Assembly (NCBI RefSeq): GCF_004135625.1
Contig: NZ_SDPV01000001.1
Coordinates: forward strand, 494,501 to 558,500
Source: Pelagerythrobacter rhizovicinus
Lineage (GTDB): Bacteria > Pseudomonadota > Alphaproteobacteria > Sphingomonadales > Sphingomonadaceae
Length of the DNA stretch: 64,000 nt
Direction of reading: 5' to 3'
In this document: piece by piece, positions 6,835 through 13,134 of the stretch
Layout of the letters: every line of letters begins with the position of its first letter
Numbering within the stretch: position 1 is the stretch's first letter
The notes under the pieces: model-generated
What the model saw: the letters and a program-made list of their open reading frames with translations, nothing else
Told to the model about the DNA's origin: nothing
The model's database searches: none
Program-made: the position numbers and the translations under genes

Positions 6835-6934
6835 CGCCCGGATATGGGCGAGCGCGCGGCGCACGGCAAGCGCTTGGCAGGCATGACCCCGCTTGTTAGC
6901 TAGTGCATAGCGATTGGCAGGGAGGAACGGTCGA

Positions 6935-7477
6935 ATGCGAGCGATGATCATGGTTGCCGGCGGTGCGCTGGCGCTTGCCGCATGCGGCAGTGAGCCCGAT
7001 CAACCGAAGACTGCAGAGGAAGTCGTCGCGGCGGCCGACAAGCTGGTGAAGCCTCGTCCGGGGCTGTACCGAAACAGTGCGGAGATCGTCGAGTTCGAGA
7101 TTCCCGGGATTCCGCCCGAACAGGCCGCGCGGATGCGCGACATGGCGGCCGGCCTGCAAGGGGAGCAAACGACCCAATGTCTGACGCAAGCCGAGGCGGA
7201 CGAGGGCTTCAGGCGAGTTGTCAAGGAACTGGGAGAGGGGCAGAACGGCATAACCTGCAGTTTCTCCCGCTTCAACGCATCCGGGAACGATCTGGATGCG
7301 GCGCTCGCCTGCTCCGCCCCTGGAGGGGACGACGCGGAGATGACGATCGAGGGCACGGTGGAGGAAGAACGAAGCCGTATGCAAATGGAAATGAACCAGC
7401 AGTCCGATGCGATTCCCGGCGGCGAGATGCGTATGACGATGGAGGTCGTCTCGGAACGCATCGGCGACTGTCCCTGA
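6935..7477 (+). CDS. DUF3617-type lipoprotein
   Basis: A 180-residue envelope protein with signal peptide and lipobox ALAAC (C17). The mature part resembles DUF3617 proteins: a PGLY-type strand near the start ([10 protein letters not shown]), a conserved CLT motif (QCLTQAEAD), a later Cys-Ser strand (ITCSFSRF) and a terminal GDC (ERIGDCP). Function is unknown. The start is fixed by GGAGGAA seven bases upstream of ATG 6935, and an upstream in-frame TTG is less likely. It is divergent from uvrB. Confidence 0.78.
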
Positions 7478-7529: not shown

Positions 7530-8324
7530 ATGAGCATAAGTTACATTTCGATGGCAACGCTACCCGCCCCTTCCTCGTTCGCACAGCTCCCCACCACACG
7601 GGAAGAGTTGGTCCTGCGCTGGGAACTCGCGCGCGAGCCGGATCCCGAGGCGAACGGTGGACCCAAGCTCCGTTATCTGGTGGGCGAGCTGTCGCACCTC
7701 GCCGAACCGGTCGTACGCCCGTTCCGGCGCATCGATATCGCCGCTGCATCCGCTTGCCGTACAGTGATGCTGCTGCCCGGCTTCGCCACGCATCCTGTCC
7801 GCATGCGCTATATGGCGCGGCTGCTCGAGCGGGCCGGCCACAAGGTCAAACGCTGGGGCCTGGGCTTCAACTTCGGGCCGACCGAGGAGAACGTGCAGTA
7901 TCTCGAGCGGCGGCTGATCGAGGTGCACGAGCGCTATGGTCGCGAAGTCTATCTCGTCGGCTGGAGTCTGGGCGGGCTCTTCGCGCGCGAGATCGCCAAG
8001 CGCCATCCCCAGCGGGTGGCGAAAGTGATCACCATGGGTTCTCCCTTTTCGGGCAATCCGCGCGCCAACAATGCGTGGCGTGCGTACCAGTTCGTGACTG
8101 GTCACCGGGTCGACCAGCCGCCGATCGAGGCCAACCTGCGCGAGAAGCCGCCCGTGCCCACGATCGCGCTGTGGAGTCCCCGCGACGGCATCGTCAGTCC
8201 GCGCAGTGCGCGCGGGCGCGCAAGCGAGCGTGATCGGGCCGTCGCGCTGCGCTGTACGCATCTCGGCTTCACTTCCTCGGCCGAGGCGATCGGCGCCGTC
8301 CTGCGGGAACTCGAAGGCGATTGA
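7530..8324 (+). CDS. alpha/beta-hydrolase fold protein
   Basis: 264 residues with the nucleophile elbow GWSLGG (Ser146), preceded by an oxyanion-type strand MLLPGFATHP and followed by an acid-loop candidate WSPRDGIVS and a histidine candidate CTHLGF. This suggests a cytoplasmic esterase or lipase-like enzyme, although the substrate is not predictable. No signal peptide is seen. Neither ATG 7530 nor ATG 7551 has a good ribosome-binding site, so the start is uncertain. It lies 70 bases upstream of the Anbu operon on the same strand and could be expressed with it. Confidence 0.8.
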   Translation: MSISYISMATLPAPSSFAQLPTTREELVLRWELAREPDPEANGGPKLRYLVGELSHLAEPVVRPFRRIDIAAASACRTVMLLPGFATHPVRMRYMARLLERAGHKVKRWGLGFNFGPTEENVQYLERRLIEVHERYGREVYLVGWSLGGLFAREIAKRHPQRVAKVITMGSPFSGNPRANNAWRAYQFVTGHRVDQPPIEANLREKPPVPTIALWSPRDGIVSPRSARGRASERDRAVALRCTHLGFTSSAEAIGAVLRELEGD

Positions 8325-8394: not shown

Positions 8395-9825
8395 ATGTAC
8401 GAGGCGGACGGCAAATTCGATGAGATGCGGACCGTGGATGGATCGGTCCGCCCGGCTTACAGAGATTACCGACACTGGTACGATCAGCAGGAGTCCGCGT
8501 TTCTCTCGCGCAAGCACCGAGAGGCCGAGATCGCGTTCCGTCGCACGGGCATCACGTTCAATGTTTACGGCGAGCAGGAGGCGGAGGAGCGGCTGATCCC
8601 GTTCGACATGGTACCGCGCATCATCACGGCGGCAGAATGGCGCCGGCTGACTCGCGGGATCGAACAACGCGTACGCGCGACCAACGCATTCATCCACGAT
8701 CTTTATCACCGCCAGGAGATCGTCCGCGCGGGACGCTTGCCCGCGAGACTGCTGCACGACAACGACGCGTGGTTGCAGCACATGGTCGGCTTCACACCTC
8801 CGGGCGAGATCTACACACACGTCGTGGGGATCGATCTCGTACGCACCGGCCCGGACGAGTTTCTCGTACTAGAGGACAATGCGCGCACCCCTTCGGGTGT
8901 CAGCTACATGCTGCAGAACCGCGAAACGATGATGGCGATGTTTCCGGAGCTCTTCACGCGCGTGCCCGTCGAGACCGTCTCGGACTACCCGCGACGGCTG
9001 GCGAAAAGCCTCGCGGCCTGTGCGCCGGTTGCGGCGGCAGGATGCAAGCCAACCGTTGCGGTCCTGACTCCAGGCATTCACAACAGTGCTTACTTCGAAC
9101 ACGCCTTTCTCGCCGATCAGATGGGCGCGGAGCTGGTCGAGGGAAGCGACCTTCGCGTGGTCAACGGCCGCGTGGCCATGCGCACCACCCGCGGATACGA
9201 GCCGATCGACGTGCTCTATCGCCGGGTGGATGACGAATTCCTCGATCCGCTGACTTTCAATCCCGACAGCGTGCTCGGGGTGCCAGGCATCATGGACGTC
9301 TATCGCGCGGGCGGGATCACTATCGCCAACGCCCCGGGCACCGGCGTGGCGGACGACAAGGCGATCTACAGCTTCATGCCCGAGATCGTAGAGTTCTACA
9401 CCGGGGAGAAGCCGCTGCTGCCCAACGTCGAGACCTGGCGCTGTGCCGACCGCGACAGCCTCGCCTACGTGCTCGACCACCTCGAGGATCTCGTGATCAA
9501 GGAGGTCCATGGATCGGGCGGTTATGGCATGCTCGTCGGCCCGGCGGCCTCGAAGCGCGATCTGGCGGCGTTCCGGCGCAAGCTGAAGGCCAAACCGCAG
9601 AACTACATCGCGCAGCCGACGCTCTCGCTTTCGACCTGCCCGATTTTCACCCGGCGCGGGCTCGCCCCGCGGCACGTGGACCTGCGGCCCTTCGTGCTTG
9701 TCTCGCCGGAAGGGATCGACATCGTGCCCGGCGGGCTGAGCCGCGTGGCCATGCGCAAGGGCTCGCTGGTGGTCAACTCGAGCCAGGGCGGCGGTACCAA
9801 AGATACCTGGGTGCTGAAGGACTGA
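8395..9825 (+). CDS. circularly permuted ATP-grasp protein (Anbu operon)
   Basis: A 476-residue protein of the circularly permuted ATP-grasp type (CP_ATPgrasp). Visible blocks are FLVLEDNARTPSGVSYML near residues 160-180, VADDKAIYSFMPEIV around 320, the ATP-grasp-like VIKEVHGSGGYGMLVGP around 370, and PRHVDLRPFVLV towards the C-terminus. ATP-grasp enzymes make amide-type bonds through acyl-phosphate intermediates. Here the substrate is unknown and peptide-bond formation is inferred from the family. GGAGG lies only three bases from ATG 8395, so ATG 8425 is an alternative. It is the first gene of a four-gene run with gaps of 2-16 bases. Confidence 0.88.
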   Translation: MYEADGKFDEMRTVDGSVRPAYRDYRHWYDQQESAFLSRKHREAEIAFRRTGITFNVYGEQEAEERLIPFDMVPRIITAAEWRRLTRGIEQRVRATNAFIHDLYHRQEIVRAGRLPARLLHDNDAWLQHMVGFTPPGEIYTHVVGIDLVRTGPDEFLVLEDNARTPSGVSYMLQNRETMMAMFPELFTRVPVETVSDYPRRLAKSLAACAPVAAAGCKPTVAVLTPGIHNSAYFEHAFLADQMGAELVEGSDLRVVNGRVAMRTTRGYEPIDVLYRRVDDEFLDPLTFNPDSVLGVPGIMDVYRAGGITIANAPGTGVADDKAIYSFMPEIVEFYTGEKPLLPNVETWRCADRDSLAYVLDHLEDLVIKEVHGSGGYGMLVGPAASKRDLAAFRRKLKAKPQNYIAQPTLSLSTCPIFTRRGLAPRHVDLRPFVLVSPEGIDIVPGGLSRVAMRKGSLVVNSSQGGGTKDTWVLKD

Positions 9826-9841
9826 TGCGCAGGAGCCTGCC

Positions 9842-10786
9842 TTGCTAGGGCGAACGGCACACGGCCTGTTCTGGATGTTCCGGTATCTGGAGCGGGCGGA
9901 GAACACCGCGCGCCTGCTCGAGGCGGGCTTTCACATGGCGCTGACCCGCGATGTAGCCACGGCGGAGGAGGAATGGCGGTCGGCGATCGAAGCCTTCGGG
10001 CTGCGCGCGGGCTACGAGGCGAAGCACGGGACGTATACCGGGCATCAGGCGTGGAATTATCTCCTGCGTGATCCGGAGAACCAGGCCAGCGTGCTCGCGA
10101 TGATCGGTGCCGTACGAACGAATGCGCGAGCGGCGCGCAACGCGATCAGCGGCGAGTTGTGGGAGGCAATCAACGAAAGTTGGATGGAGATTTCCGGGCT
10201 TCTCGCGCGTCCGGTGGCGCAGGGCAGCGTAGGCGAGGCGGTGCAGATCATCCGCCGCGCCGGGACTGCGGTCCACGGCGCGATGAACGGATCCATGTTG
10301 CGCAACGAAGGCTTTCACTTTGCCCGTGCGGGCACGTTCGTCGAGCGCGCGGATTGCGTCGCGCGCATCCTGGACATGAAGTACTACCTGCTGCTGCCAT
10401 CGCTGTCGTACGTCGGGTCGAGCCTCGACACCGGTCAGTGGGATCAGGTGCTTCGTTCGGTGTCCGGGGACCGCGCGTTCCGCTGGCTCAACGCCGGACA
10501 GATCGACGCCCGTGGGATCGTGGAATTCCTCGTGCTCGACGACCGTTTCCCGCGCAGCATCGCCTTCTGCCATTCGGCGCTGCGCGACGAACTGGCGGCG
10601 CTGGCGCGGATTCATGGCACCGAAGGGACGAGCAATGCGTTGATGCGCGAGAGCGCCACGCGCATTGCGGACCTCACGATCGACGGAATCTTCGAAATGG
10701 GCCTGCACAACTTCCTGCTCGAGTTCACAGCGGCCAACGGTGCGATCGCCGATGCAATTGCCGAAGACTATCGGTTCCAGAGCTGA
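9842..10786 (+). CDS. alpha-E domain protein (Anbu operon)
   Basis: A 314-residue mostly helical protein that begins LGRTAHGLFWMFRYLERAENTARLLE, the characteristic opening of alpha-E domain proteins. It also has an internal FVERADCVARILDMKYY repeat of the same pattern. The function of the domain is unknown, and it almost always accompanies permuted ATP-grasp and transglutaminase-like genes. The start is TTG 9842 with GGAG about 9 bases upstream. It sits 16 bases after the ATP-grasp gene and ends 3 bases before the transglutaminase gene. Confidence 0.87.
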   Translation: MLGRTAHGLFWMFRYLERAENTARLLEAGFHMALTRDVATAEEEWRSAIEAFGLRAGYEAKHGTYTGHQAWNYLLRDPENQASVLAMIGAVRTNARAARNAISGELWEAINESWMEISGLLARPVAQGSVGEAVQIIRRAGTAVHGAMNGSMLRNEGFHFARAGTFVERADCVARILDMKYYLLLPSLSYVGSSLDTGQWDQVLRSVSGDRAFRWLNAGQIDARGIVEFLVLDDRFPRSIAFCHSALRDELAALARIHGTEGTSNALMRESATRIADLTIDGIFEMGLHNFLLEFTAANGAIADAIAEDYRFQS

Positions 10787-10789
10787 GCC

Positions 10790-11605
10790 ATGCGCCTCTC
10801 GGTCCGCCACAGAACACGTTACAGGTTCGCCGAGCCGGTGGTCCACGCGCTCCAGCGCCTGCGCCTGACGCCCAAGGCGACGCAGGAGCAGGAGGTCCTC
10901 TCATGGGACGTGGAGTACGAGAACGCCCGTCCGGAGCTCTCGTACGAGGATCAGCACTGCAACGCCGTGACTCTTGTTTCGGTCGAGCAGGACGCGCGGG
11001 AGGTGGTCGTCAGTTGCCGGGGGCTGGTCGACACGAGGGATAATGCAGGCGTCATGGGCCATCACTCGGGGCATCTGCCTCTGTGGAGCTTTCTCGCGCA
11101 GACCCGCCTCACGCGGCCGGGGCCGAAAGTGCGGGCCCTGCTCCGCGACCTCGATTGTCCGCCCGACGGAAAGCTCGAGTTCCTCCACGCGCTCTCGGAC
11201 CGGATCCGCGAGGAGGTCGAGTATCGTGCCGGATCGACAGAGGTAACGACGGCCGCGGAAGAGGCGGCAGATGCCGGATGCGGGGTGTGCCAGGACCACG
11301 CGCACATCTTCATCGGTGCCGCACGCGCGCTCGATATACCGGCGCGCTACGTCAGCGGCTATCTCATGATGAACGATCGCGTGGAGCAGGATGCGACGCA
11401 CGCGTGGGCGGAAGCACACGTCGACGGGCTCGGCTGGGTGGGGTTCGATATCTCCAATGGGATCAGCCCCGATGCGCGTTACGTTCGGGTCGCCACTGGT
11501 CGCGACTACCGCGACGCCGCACCCGTGACAGGGATCAGCTTCGGGGTTGCCAGCGAGGATCTCCACGTCGATGTGGCGGTCGAACAGCAGCAGATGGATC
11601 AGTAG
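10790..11605 (+). CDS. transglutaminase-like cysteine peptidase family protein (Anbu operon)
   Basis: 271 residues. The N-terminal part (about 1-85) resembles the bacterial transglutaminase N-terminal region (MRLSVRHRTRYRF). The core has the papain-like triad: Cys in GCGVCQDHAH (near residue 165), His in THAWAEAHV (near 204) and Asp in GFDISNG. Members can hydrolyse or transfer peptide or amide bonds. No signal peptide is visible, so action in the cytoplasm is likely. It is translationally close to both neighbours, with gaps of 3 and 2 bases. Confidence 0.88.
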   Translation: MRLSVRHRTRYRFAEPVVHALQRLRLTPKATQEQEVLSWDVEYENARPELSYEDQHCNAVTLVSVEQDAREVVVSCRGLVDTRDNAGVMGHHSGHLPLWSFLAQTRLTRPGPKVRALLRDLDCPPDGKLEFLHALSDRIREEVEYRAGSTEVTTAAEEAADAGCGVCQDHAHIFIGAARALDIPARYVSGYLMMNDRVEQDATHAWAEAHVDGLGWVGFDISNGISPDARYVRVATGRDYRDAAPVTGISFGVASEDLHVDVAVEQQQMDQ

Positions 11606-11607
11606 TA

Positions 11608-12357
11608 ATGACCTATTGCGTCGGAATGGTGCTCGACAAGGGGCTCGTCCTGATGAGCGACACGCGCACCAACTCCGGTGTCGACAACATTTCCGTGTTT
11701 CGAAAGATGTTTCAGTGGCAGACGCCGGGCGAGCGGATGCTCGCTGTCATGACCGCCGGCAACCTCGCCACCACGCAGGCGGTAGTCAGTTATCTCGAGG
11801 AACGCACGAACGTTCCGGGTGAGCGGCACAACTCACTTCTCGAGGCGCCCACGATGTTCCAGGTGGCGACCGAGATCGGTCGGCTGCTGCGTGCGACGAT
11901 CGAGGAACGGCAGGAAGCGAACGGCGATCGCGGACGGGGCCGCTTTACCGCCTCGATCATTCTTGCGGGACAGATCAAGGGCATGGAACCGCGCCTGTTC
12001 CTGATCTACCCTGAGGGTAACTTCATCGAAGCGAGCTTCGACACGCCCTTCTTCCAGATCGGCGAAACGAAGTACGGCCGCCCGATCCTGATCCGCGGCT
12101 ACGATCGGGGGATGAGCTTCGAGGACGCGGTCAAGCTGCTGATGGTTTCGTTCGATTCGACGCTCAAGGCCAATCTCTCGGTAGGCTTGCCGCTCGACCT
12201 GCTGGTGATCGCGCGCGACCAGTTCGAGCCGACGCACGCGCGCCGCATTACGCACGACGATCCTTATTTCGACGCAATCTCCTCGAGCTGGGGCGACGAA
12301 CTGCGAAAGGCGTTCCACGCCCTGCCCGACTACAGCTTCCATCCCGGCGGCGAGTAG
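11608..12357 (+). CDS. Anbu-type proteasome-like peptidase
   Basis: A 249-residue homologue of 20S proteasome beta subunits and HslV. It begins MTYCVGMVLDKGLVLMSDTR. If the initiator Met is removed, Thr1 becomes the N-terminal nucleophile, with Asp17 (SDTR) and Lys32 (FRKM) in the positions expected for the proteasome catalytic set. This agrees with the Anbu (ancestral beta subunit) family, which lacks a dedicated unfoldase partner and is linked to ATP-grasp, alpha-E and transglutaminase genes. It is the last gene of that operon. Its substrate is unknown. Confidence 0.9.
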   Translation: MTYCVGMVLDKGLVLMSDTRTNSGVDNISVFRKMFQWQTPGERMLAVMTAGNLATTQAVVSYLEERTNVPGERHNSLLEAPTMFQVATEIGRLLRATIEERQEANGDRGRGRFTASIILAGQIKGMEPRLFLIYPEGNFIEASFDTPFFQIGETKYGRPILIRGYDRGMSFEDAVKLLMVSFDSTLKANLSVGLPLDLLVIARDQFEPTHARRITHDDPYFDAISSSWGDELRKAFHALPDYSFHPGGE

Positions 12358-12534
12358 GCGCTCTTGCGGACGCGTGCCGGCACGAGAGCGATACATCCAT
12401 TCCGGATGGAAGCACGCGGCACCGCATGGCGCGGGGCGGCGAAGCGGCATAGGTGATCGCACTTAGCCAAAACCTTGGAATCAGAGCGGCTGCAATGCCG
12501 TACAGGGTTGCGCTTCGTTGCATTGCTTCGCCGC

Positions 12535-13134
12535 ATGGGCGGGCAGGTTATCCACATCGTCGAACCGCAGGGGGATCAGCGGGCGCATCTGGCACAGCTC
12601 GTTGTTGCGCTGGGCCATAGCGCGGAGGCCTACCCGACGGTCGACGAGGTGATCGATTCCCAGCCGCAGGACGGGATTCTGCTGCTCCGCGATTGCGAGC
12701 TGTGGGGCGGCATCCCGGAGGTCATTCGGCGACTCACCCGCCGGTCGGTCTGGCTTCCGGTCGTGGTGACGGCAGCCGAACCGAAAGCCCCACGGATCGT
12801 TGCCGCCGTTCGGGGCGGCGCATTCGATTATCTGGAGCTGCCTCTGACGGGGGAGGTGCTGGGGGCCGCGATCAACCGAGCGACGGCCGAGGCTGCCGGC
12901 TATGCGGCGAGGCAGCGGCGGCTCGCGGAAGCGCGCCGACATGTCGGCGCACTGACCCGGCGCGAGCGCCAGGTGCTCGACCTGCTGACCGAAGGGCTAA
13001 GCAACAAGGCTATCGCCCGCGCGCTTGCGATCAGTCCGCGCACGGTCGAGATCCATCGCGCGAACATGATGGCCAAACTTGGCGCGAAACATCCCGCTGA
13101 TGCAGTGCGAATACGGCTGGACGCCGCGAAGTGA
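12535..13134 (+). CDS. LuxR/FixJ-type regulator with degenerate receiver domain
   Basis: 199 residues: an N-terminal receiver-like fold (about 1-115) and a C-terminal LuxR-type helix-turn-helix (LTRRERQVLDLLTEGLSNKAIARAL, then RTVEIHRANMMAKL). Aligned by eye to FixJ, the acidic pair is VEPQ, the phosphoacceptor stretch reads LLLRDCELWGG with Arg at or beside the Asp site, and the conserved Lys is lost (YLELPL for EKPF). The domain probably does not use normal phosphorylation. No histidine kinase is adjacent. It follows the Anbu operon after 177 bases. ATG 12535 is preferred, though the frame is open to 12475. Confidence 0.8.
   Translation: MGGQVIHIVEPQGDQRAHLAQLVVALGHSAEAYPTVDEVIDSQPQDGILLLRDCELWGGIPEVIRRLTRRSVWLPVVVTAAEPKAPRIVAAVRGGAFDYLELPLTGEVLGAAINRATAEAAGYAARQRRLAEARRHVGALTRRERQVLDLLTEGLSNKAIARALAISPRTVEIHRANMMAKLGAKHPADAVRIRLDAAK

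Follow-up and report, generated by a model that had tools for sequence, protein, structure and literature searches.

Anbu has been discussed as a relative of the proteasome ancestor, and earlier accounts of the operon that encodes it are said, in the citations of other papers, to be those of Valas and Bourne in 2008 and of Iyer et al. in 2009. The operon has already been described (Fuchs et al. 2017, PMC5666114; PMC6376114), with its gene order given in PMC6376114. In published tests, relatives of Anbu formed open rings and were inactive on standard substrates, and the literature on relatives also covers exposure of Thr1, ATP hydrolysis by an ATP-grasp protein and the binding of inhibitors. 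The other operon proteins are reported to be sparse in archaea, where Anbu was lost (PMC5666114). Several published proposals infer the job of Anbu from its three operon partners. In the 64,000-nucleotide stretch of Pelagerythrobacter rhizovicinus DNA analysed here (the window; contig NZ_SDPV01000001.1, 494,501 to 558,500), positions 8395-12357 are an ordinary, intact copy of this known four-gene operon, which encodes a circularly permuted ATP-grasp protein, an alpha-E protein, a transglutaminase-like protein and Anbu. The system itself is known; what a comparison across the family Sphingomonadaceae adds is the reciprocal loss of its two halves, which, as far as we searched, was not found in print for any one bacterial family. 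The repeated retention of either half without the other suggests two separable jobs rather than one.

In a set of 298 family genomes, searches found Anbu in 248 and alpha-E in 252; both were present in 238, Anbu only in 10, alpha-E only in 14 and neither in 36. The ATP-grasp protein was found in none of the ten Anbu-only genomes and in all 14 of the alpha-E-only genomes; the second of these two ATP-grasp searches, which included the 14, was positive in 21/21 genomes and so serves as the control. A transglutaminase-like gene lies downstream in 12 of the 14 alpha-E-only loci (1.7 kb away in one of them), the remaining two being a locus that lacks such a gene and one that ends with its contig. 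ATP-grasp and alpha-E thus stay or disappear as a pair in these genomes, and it is Anbu that can come apart from them. Five genera (g21, g53, g66, g75 and g79) contain species with a full-length orphan Anbu beside species with Anbu and alpha-E. Two further loci were kept out of the orphan counts: L252, an apparent orphan Anbu that was dropped on finding a stand-alone-type ATP-grasp elsewhere in its genome, and L203, in which a deletion runs from the neighbouring alpha/beta hydrolase gene into the transglutaminase gene and leaves Anbu intact, in a genome whose only match is of the fused type treated below.

The losses can be followed at particular sites. Between the hydrolase gene and an intact Anbu, G191, G268 and G240 lack the three upstream genes, and the genera of these three also include four-gene species (L036, L267, L268 and L130). 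The start codon of Anbu comes immediately after the hydrolase stop codon in G191, the junction measuring 0 bases there and 49 in G268. Since these two are sisters, with a support of 0.96 in a tree of four neighbouring proteins, the most economical reading is that the loss happened once, before they diverged. Elsewhere in the family, the operon adjoins a gene for an arginyl/leucyl-tRNA-protein transferase (Pfam ATE_N/ATE_C). At this site L167, L169, L170 and L171 hold an orphan Anbu, four loci of one genus (L254, L256, L257 and L260) hold the three-gene unit without Anbu, and alpha-E, transglutaminase and Anbu occur together in 6 of 30 short loci, which end before ATP-grasp and extend only 1.5 kb beyond Anbu. 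The transferase gene stands tail-to-tail with Anbu in the four orphan loci and in L279, L283, L286, L289, L300 and L302. A link to N-end-rule tagging through this gene was considered and rejected as evidence: the genes are convergent, and the same site is occupied by the alpha-E/transglutaminase/Anbu loci and by the three-gene unit.

Nine of the ten orphan Anbu proteins are full length, and all nine keep Thr1, Asp17 and Lys; the tenth, G106, is the C-terminal half only and is counted despite being a fragment. Between the Anbu genes of G191 and G268 the rates of non-synonymous (dN) and synonymous (dS) substitution were 0.058 and 0.507, a dN/dS of 0.114 (bootstrap 0.063-0.179). Four-gene pairs from the same genus gave 0.092 for the closest pair (bootstrap 0.042-0.149), and 0.179 and 0.224 for the others. 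A second orphan pair, G053-G129, had a dN/dS of 0.136 (bootstrap 0.085-0.210). Orphan Anbu is under purifying selection in these two pairs and is not simply decaying. If Anbu is kept by selection without its partners, its substrate must be sought independently of those partners, and the orphan-Anbu species, together with those that carry only the three-gene unit, are natural organisms in which to study each half alone.

An earlier note on the window, made from the letters alone, had read four genes separated by 16, 3 and 2 bases as an Anbu operon that is complete and keeps its catalytic residues. Open reading frame (ORF) calls and searches of Pfam and PDB reproduced its coordinates, strand and families (Table 1), with all four genes intact on one strand, and the operon is as complete as claimed, though it is one already in print. 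The gaps of 16, 3 and 2 bases suggest a single transcript; inside the operon a consensus scan found neither a sigma70-type promoter nor a terminator, and an Rfam search gave no match. The genome has one Anbu match and one alpha-E match, and its closest named relative among the matches listed is Pelagerythrobacter aerophilus (Anbu 94%). In the Anbu translation Thr directly follows the start Met, with no propeptide; Thr1, Asp17 and Lys32, numbered after Met removal, are present as the note had it and never vary in 187/187 distinct aligned sequences, which include the window protein and exclude those below 80% of its length. The PDB match to 5loy covers Anbu residues 2-242, with further matches to 5nyj, 5nyf, 5nyw and 5lox, and the match to 3n6x spans nearly the entire ATP-grasp chain. 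The Anbu-1 S1 pocket, given as T20, F30, T48, L52 and S55 for Pseudomonas aeruginosa (PMC5666114), reads T20, F30, T48, L52 and T55 in the window protein, position 55 being Thr and not Ser.

The partner proteins are likewise intact. In the ATP-grasp protein, each fixed position of the motifs LEDNxRTPSG, KEVHGSGGYGM and NSSQGGGTKD is retained in 115-118 of 118 aligned sequences, duplicates kept. The Cys-His-Asp set that had been claimed for the transglutaminase is there as Cys167-His204-Asp220, and across 170 distinct sequences Cys is found in 166, and His and Asp in all 170. Three of the exceptions, traced to their loci, carry Tyr, Ala and Thr; the fourth, a Pro untraced to any locus, may be an alignment error. 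The traced ones are the transglutaminase-like proteins between alpha-E and Anbu in L279, L283 and L289, which read Tyr/Ala/Thr for Cys and keep His and Asp, and which are, judging by these residues, probable pseudo-enzymes. Because Cys is missing in 4/170 sequences, the transglutaminase chemistry would not always be needed. Alpha-E is all helical in an AlphaFold2 model (mean predicted local distance difference test (pLDDT) 88, predicted template modelling score (pTM) 0.87); nothing in the PDB matched it at E<0.001 (best 0.57). The top VIA-align match of the model was a designed repeat protein (Z 9.7 over 102 residues), a score that helical bundles commonly reach, and a new fold is not claimed.

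We lean, with modest confidence, towards an operon composed of two enzyme units that usually occur together, each being able to live alone. The first unit would consist of ATP-grasp and alpha-E, usually with the transglutaminase-like protein, and would make an amide or peptide-type bond. ATP-grasp would activate a carboxylate as an acyl phosphate and join it to an amine, and alpha-E, its constant helical partner, probably binds or presents the substrate, since it accompanies ATP-grasp throughout here and is fused to it in a paralogous system. The transglutaminase fold may then act on the product of this unit by transacylation or hydrolysis. The second unit would be Anbu, a threonine hydrolase of the N-terminal nucleophile (Ntn) type whose Thr1 would be exposed by methionine aminopeptidase, and which may work as an open ring on peptide or amide substrates of its own, independently of the first unit. 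The paralogous system comprises ATP-grasp/alpha-E fusions, found in other family genomes as ORFs of 827-864 aa (L269, L270, L272 and L304-L312); in the two proteins scanned both domains are present and follow the order of the operon genes. That such a natural fusion exists supports the pairing. Over the ATP-grasp part the fused protein is 33-39% identical to the stand-alone one, and KEVHGSGGYGM is missing, by eye, from a consensus of 12, so that its ATP chemistry is possibly changed or lost. Transglutaminase-like genes are present, and Anbu absent, in the four 13-kb fused-protein loci that were read. A structure model of the fusion (mean pLDDT 40, pTM 0.25) was not used.

Several points weigh against this division into two units. 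Both units are kept in 238/298 genomes, so that a common purpose is still the rule. There are only ten orphans, one of them the G106 fragment, and the genome of G268 is 73% complete. The single loss ahead of the G191/G268 split is drawn from a small tree, and the differing junctions would also fit two losses. The Anbu of G229 gave a dN/dS of 0.29-0.30 against the two further orphans in its genus (0.22-0.49 for pairs of species with both genes in that genus), and that of G107 gave 0.23-0.35 against its relatives (0.07-0.25 among those relatives); some relaxation may have taken place there, and all of these ratios come from pairwise counts, not from a branch model. Standard substrates gave no peptidase activity in two studies (PMC5666114, PMC6376114), neither unit has a known substrate or product, and the role given to the transglutaminase is a weak element, Cys being absent in the four sequences mentioned. 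The earlier note's description of an uncharacterised system holds for function; it does not hold for the operon, which is described, or for relatives of Anbu and ATP-grasp, which have been solved or assayed.

Proposals cited in PMC6376114 and PMC5666114 amount to make-and-break models, either deubiquitinase-like or with a tag-directed protease. All four proteins would then serve one cycle: a tag added, or a peptide assembled, by ATP-grasp and transglutaminase would be taken off or broken down by Anbu. Conservation of the gene order speaks for such a cycle. Forty loci of up to 13 kb, chosen so as to cover the range of identity, were taken from the 248 family genomes with Anbu, 26 of them close (Anbu at least 70% identical) and the other 14 distant; the four-gene order is kept in 38 (25/26 close, 13/14 distant), far beyond chance, and, in a sample of named loci that is the best 80 of at least 594, in 32 of the 35 with Anbu below 70% identity. 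Anbu is, moreover, present in 238 of the 252 alpha-E genomes. Yet each half persists alone, partly at the same sites, orphan Anbu is under purifying selection in two pairs, and PMC6376114 reports that specific binding between the proteins of the operon could not be detected. The reciprocal loss weakens models of this kind, and we regard a single cycle as unlikely. It is more doubtful still that the orphan genes are decaying remnants and that Anbu is functionless without its partners: the half-length G106 and the somewhat raised dN/dS in the G229 and G107 comparisons would fit decay, but all ten orphans except G106 have their whole length and intact catalytic residues, and the dN/dS values of the two orphan pairs (0.11 and 0.14) have upper bootstrap limits of 0.18 and 0.21. 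Within the two-unit reading, a stricter form, in which Anbu is a stand-alone hydrolase with its own substrate, ATP-grasp/alpha-E (usually with the transglutaminase-like protein) makes a separate amide product and the two are joined only by shared regulation, is offered tentatively, as a finely balanced proposal that we hold to be slightly less likely than not.

The earlier note had also suggested that the hydrolase gene upstream and a regulator gene downstream may belong to the operon, which would make a six-gene system with the regulator in control. Both genes do adjoin Anbu in related genomes: 23 of 24 judgeable close loci have the hydrolase directly upstream, and 22 of 26 have the regulator directly downstream. 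This holds for close relatives only; among the distant family loci the counts are 0/13 and 0/14. In the sample of named loci defined above, the counts for hydrolase and regulator were 27/41 and 30/42 where Anbu is above 70% identity, and 0/31 and 0/30 below it; the operon thus lacks a hydrolase directly upstream in 14 of these 41 named close relatives. Among the 26 close loci, moreover, the unrelated uvrB and an extensin-like gene match the hydrolase in conservation (23, 24 and 24 of 26 for the three). Four operon-free sites (L122, L123, L124 and L125) keep the hydrolase, a count that is biased because they were found through a hydrolase search and that shows only that this gene can persist alone. 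At three of them (L122, L124 and L125) the regulator is missing together with the operon, as a six-gene system would have it; L123, however, keeps the regulator without the operon, and L040, L041 and L055 have an intact operon without the regulator. The genomes of L124 and L125 hold a diverged Anbu operon elsewhere (L064, L065), and the other two genomes are 85% and 66% complete. On all these counts, hydrolase and regulator, each of which can occur there without the operon, look like syntenic neighbours and not operon parts, although the regulator keeps a slight chance of belonging; a working system of six genes seems to us very improbable.

The regulator, whose link to the operon is uncertain, is FixJ-like with a degenerate receiver. 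It had no Pfam Response_reg match, and Leu is aligned with the receiver Lys of FixJ, which by eye is absent in all 17 rows that cover the position, two further rows not reaching it. Its start is more likely ATG 12535 than TTG 12475, because the match begins at regulator residues 23-26 in 15 of 22 loci. A DUF3617 protein, encoded at 6914-7477 between uvrB and the hydrolase gene, occurs as a tandem pair or triple in several relatives. Upstream of the operon, L233 has a second transglutaminase-like match and L246 a second ATP-grasp match.

Table 1. Genes of the Anbu operon and its two neighbours in the window.
Feature	Coordinates	Strand	Length and start	Best family and structure matches	Remark
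Circularly permuted ATP-grasp protein	8395-9825	+	476 aa	Pfam CP_ATPgrasp_2 2.2e-162; PDB 3n6x 5.5e-189	
Alpha-E protein	9842-10786	+	314 aa, TTG start	Pfam Alpha-E 4.5e-83	
Transglutaminase-like protein	10790-11605	+	271 aa	Pfam Transglut_core 2.5e-23, Bact_transglu_N 2.9e-18	
Anbu	11608-12357	+	249 aa, ATG 11608	Pfam Proteasome 3.7e-11; PDB 5loy 1.5e-82	
Alpha/beta hydrolase	7530-8324	+		Pfam Abhydrolase_1 1.7e-09	Syntenic neighbour, probably outside the system
FixJ-like regulator, degenerate receiver	12475-13134	+		Pfam GerE 1.3e-21; FixJ 5xso 6.8e-21	

A test for control by sigma54 and NtrC was prompted by published links of related operons to nitrogen or NtrC: genes of the cluster PP_2685-PP_2688 of Pseudomonas putida go up on nitrate or under nitrogen limitation (PMC8050072, PMC3325844), and I35_5080-83 of Burkholderia cenocepacia is an NtrC/sigma54-dependent cluster (PMC5491218). 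The genome analysed here carries an RpoN gene. The sigma54 consensus is TGGCACG-N4-TTGCW, and in the window no match to it within two mismatches was found on the + strand before 8395 or 7530. In 109 upstream regions, all from relatives and none from the window, no region had a site upstream of ATP-grasp that reached 11 of the 12 positions and two reached 10, mean scores being close to those of shuffles. NtrC-like palindromes occurred in 1/53 and 5/56 loci, counted without a control. Control of the operon by sigma54/NtrC was therefore rejected, the consensus sites being not above shuffles and none standing before the window genes. Nitrogen economy is still the best physiological clue, by analogy with other bacteria, and the operon may serve the economy of amino acids or nitrogen.

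The described systems can be set against this locus as follows. The P. putida cluster, where its genes are named, shares a proteasome beta-like, a transglutaminase-like and an ATP-grasp protein with the window, and the B. cenocepacia cluster shares DUF404/407, DUF403 and transglutaminase-like genes; as listed in PMC5491218, the latter differs in that it includes a second, large transglutaminase-like protein and lacks a proteasome-like gene. Both clusters are linked to nitrogen or NtrC, whereas for the window it is only the absence of the sigma54 consensus that is established. The published Anbu operon has the same four families in the same order, the same Thr1/Asp17/Lys32 and the same Anbu-1 pocket, apart from Thr55 for Ser. 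It differs from the window, where no sigma54-type promoter was detected upstream, and from this family, whose close relatives add the neighbouring hydrolase and pseudo-receiver regulator and whose members show the reciprocal loss of the two halves of the operon.

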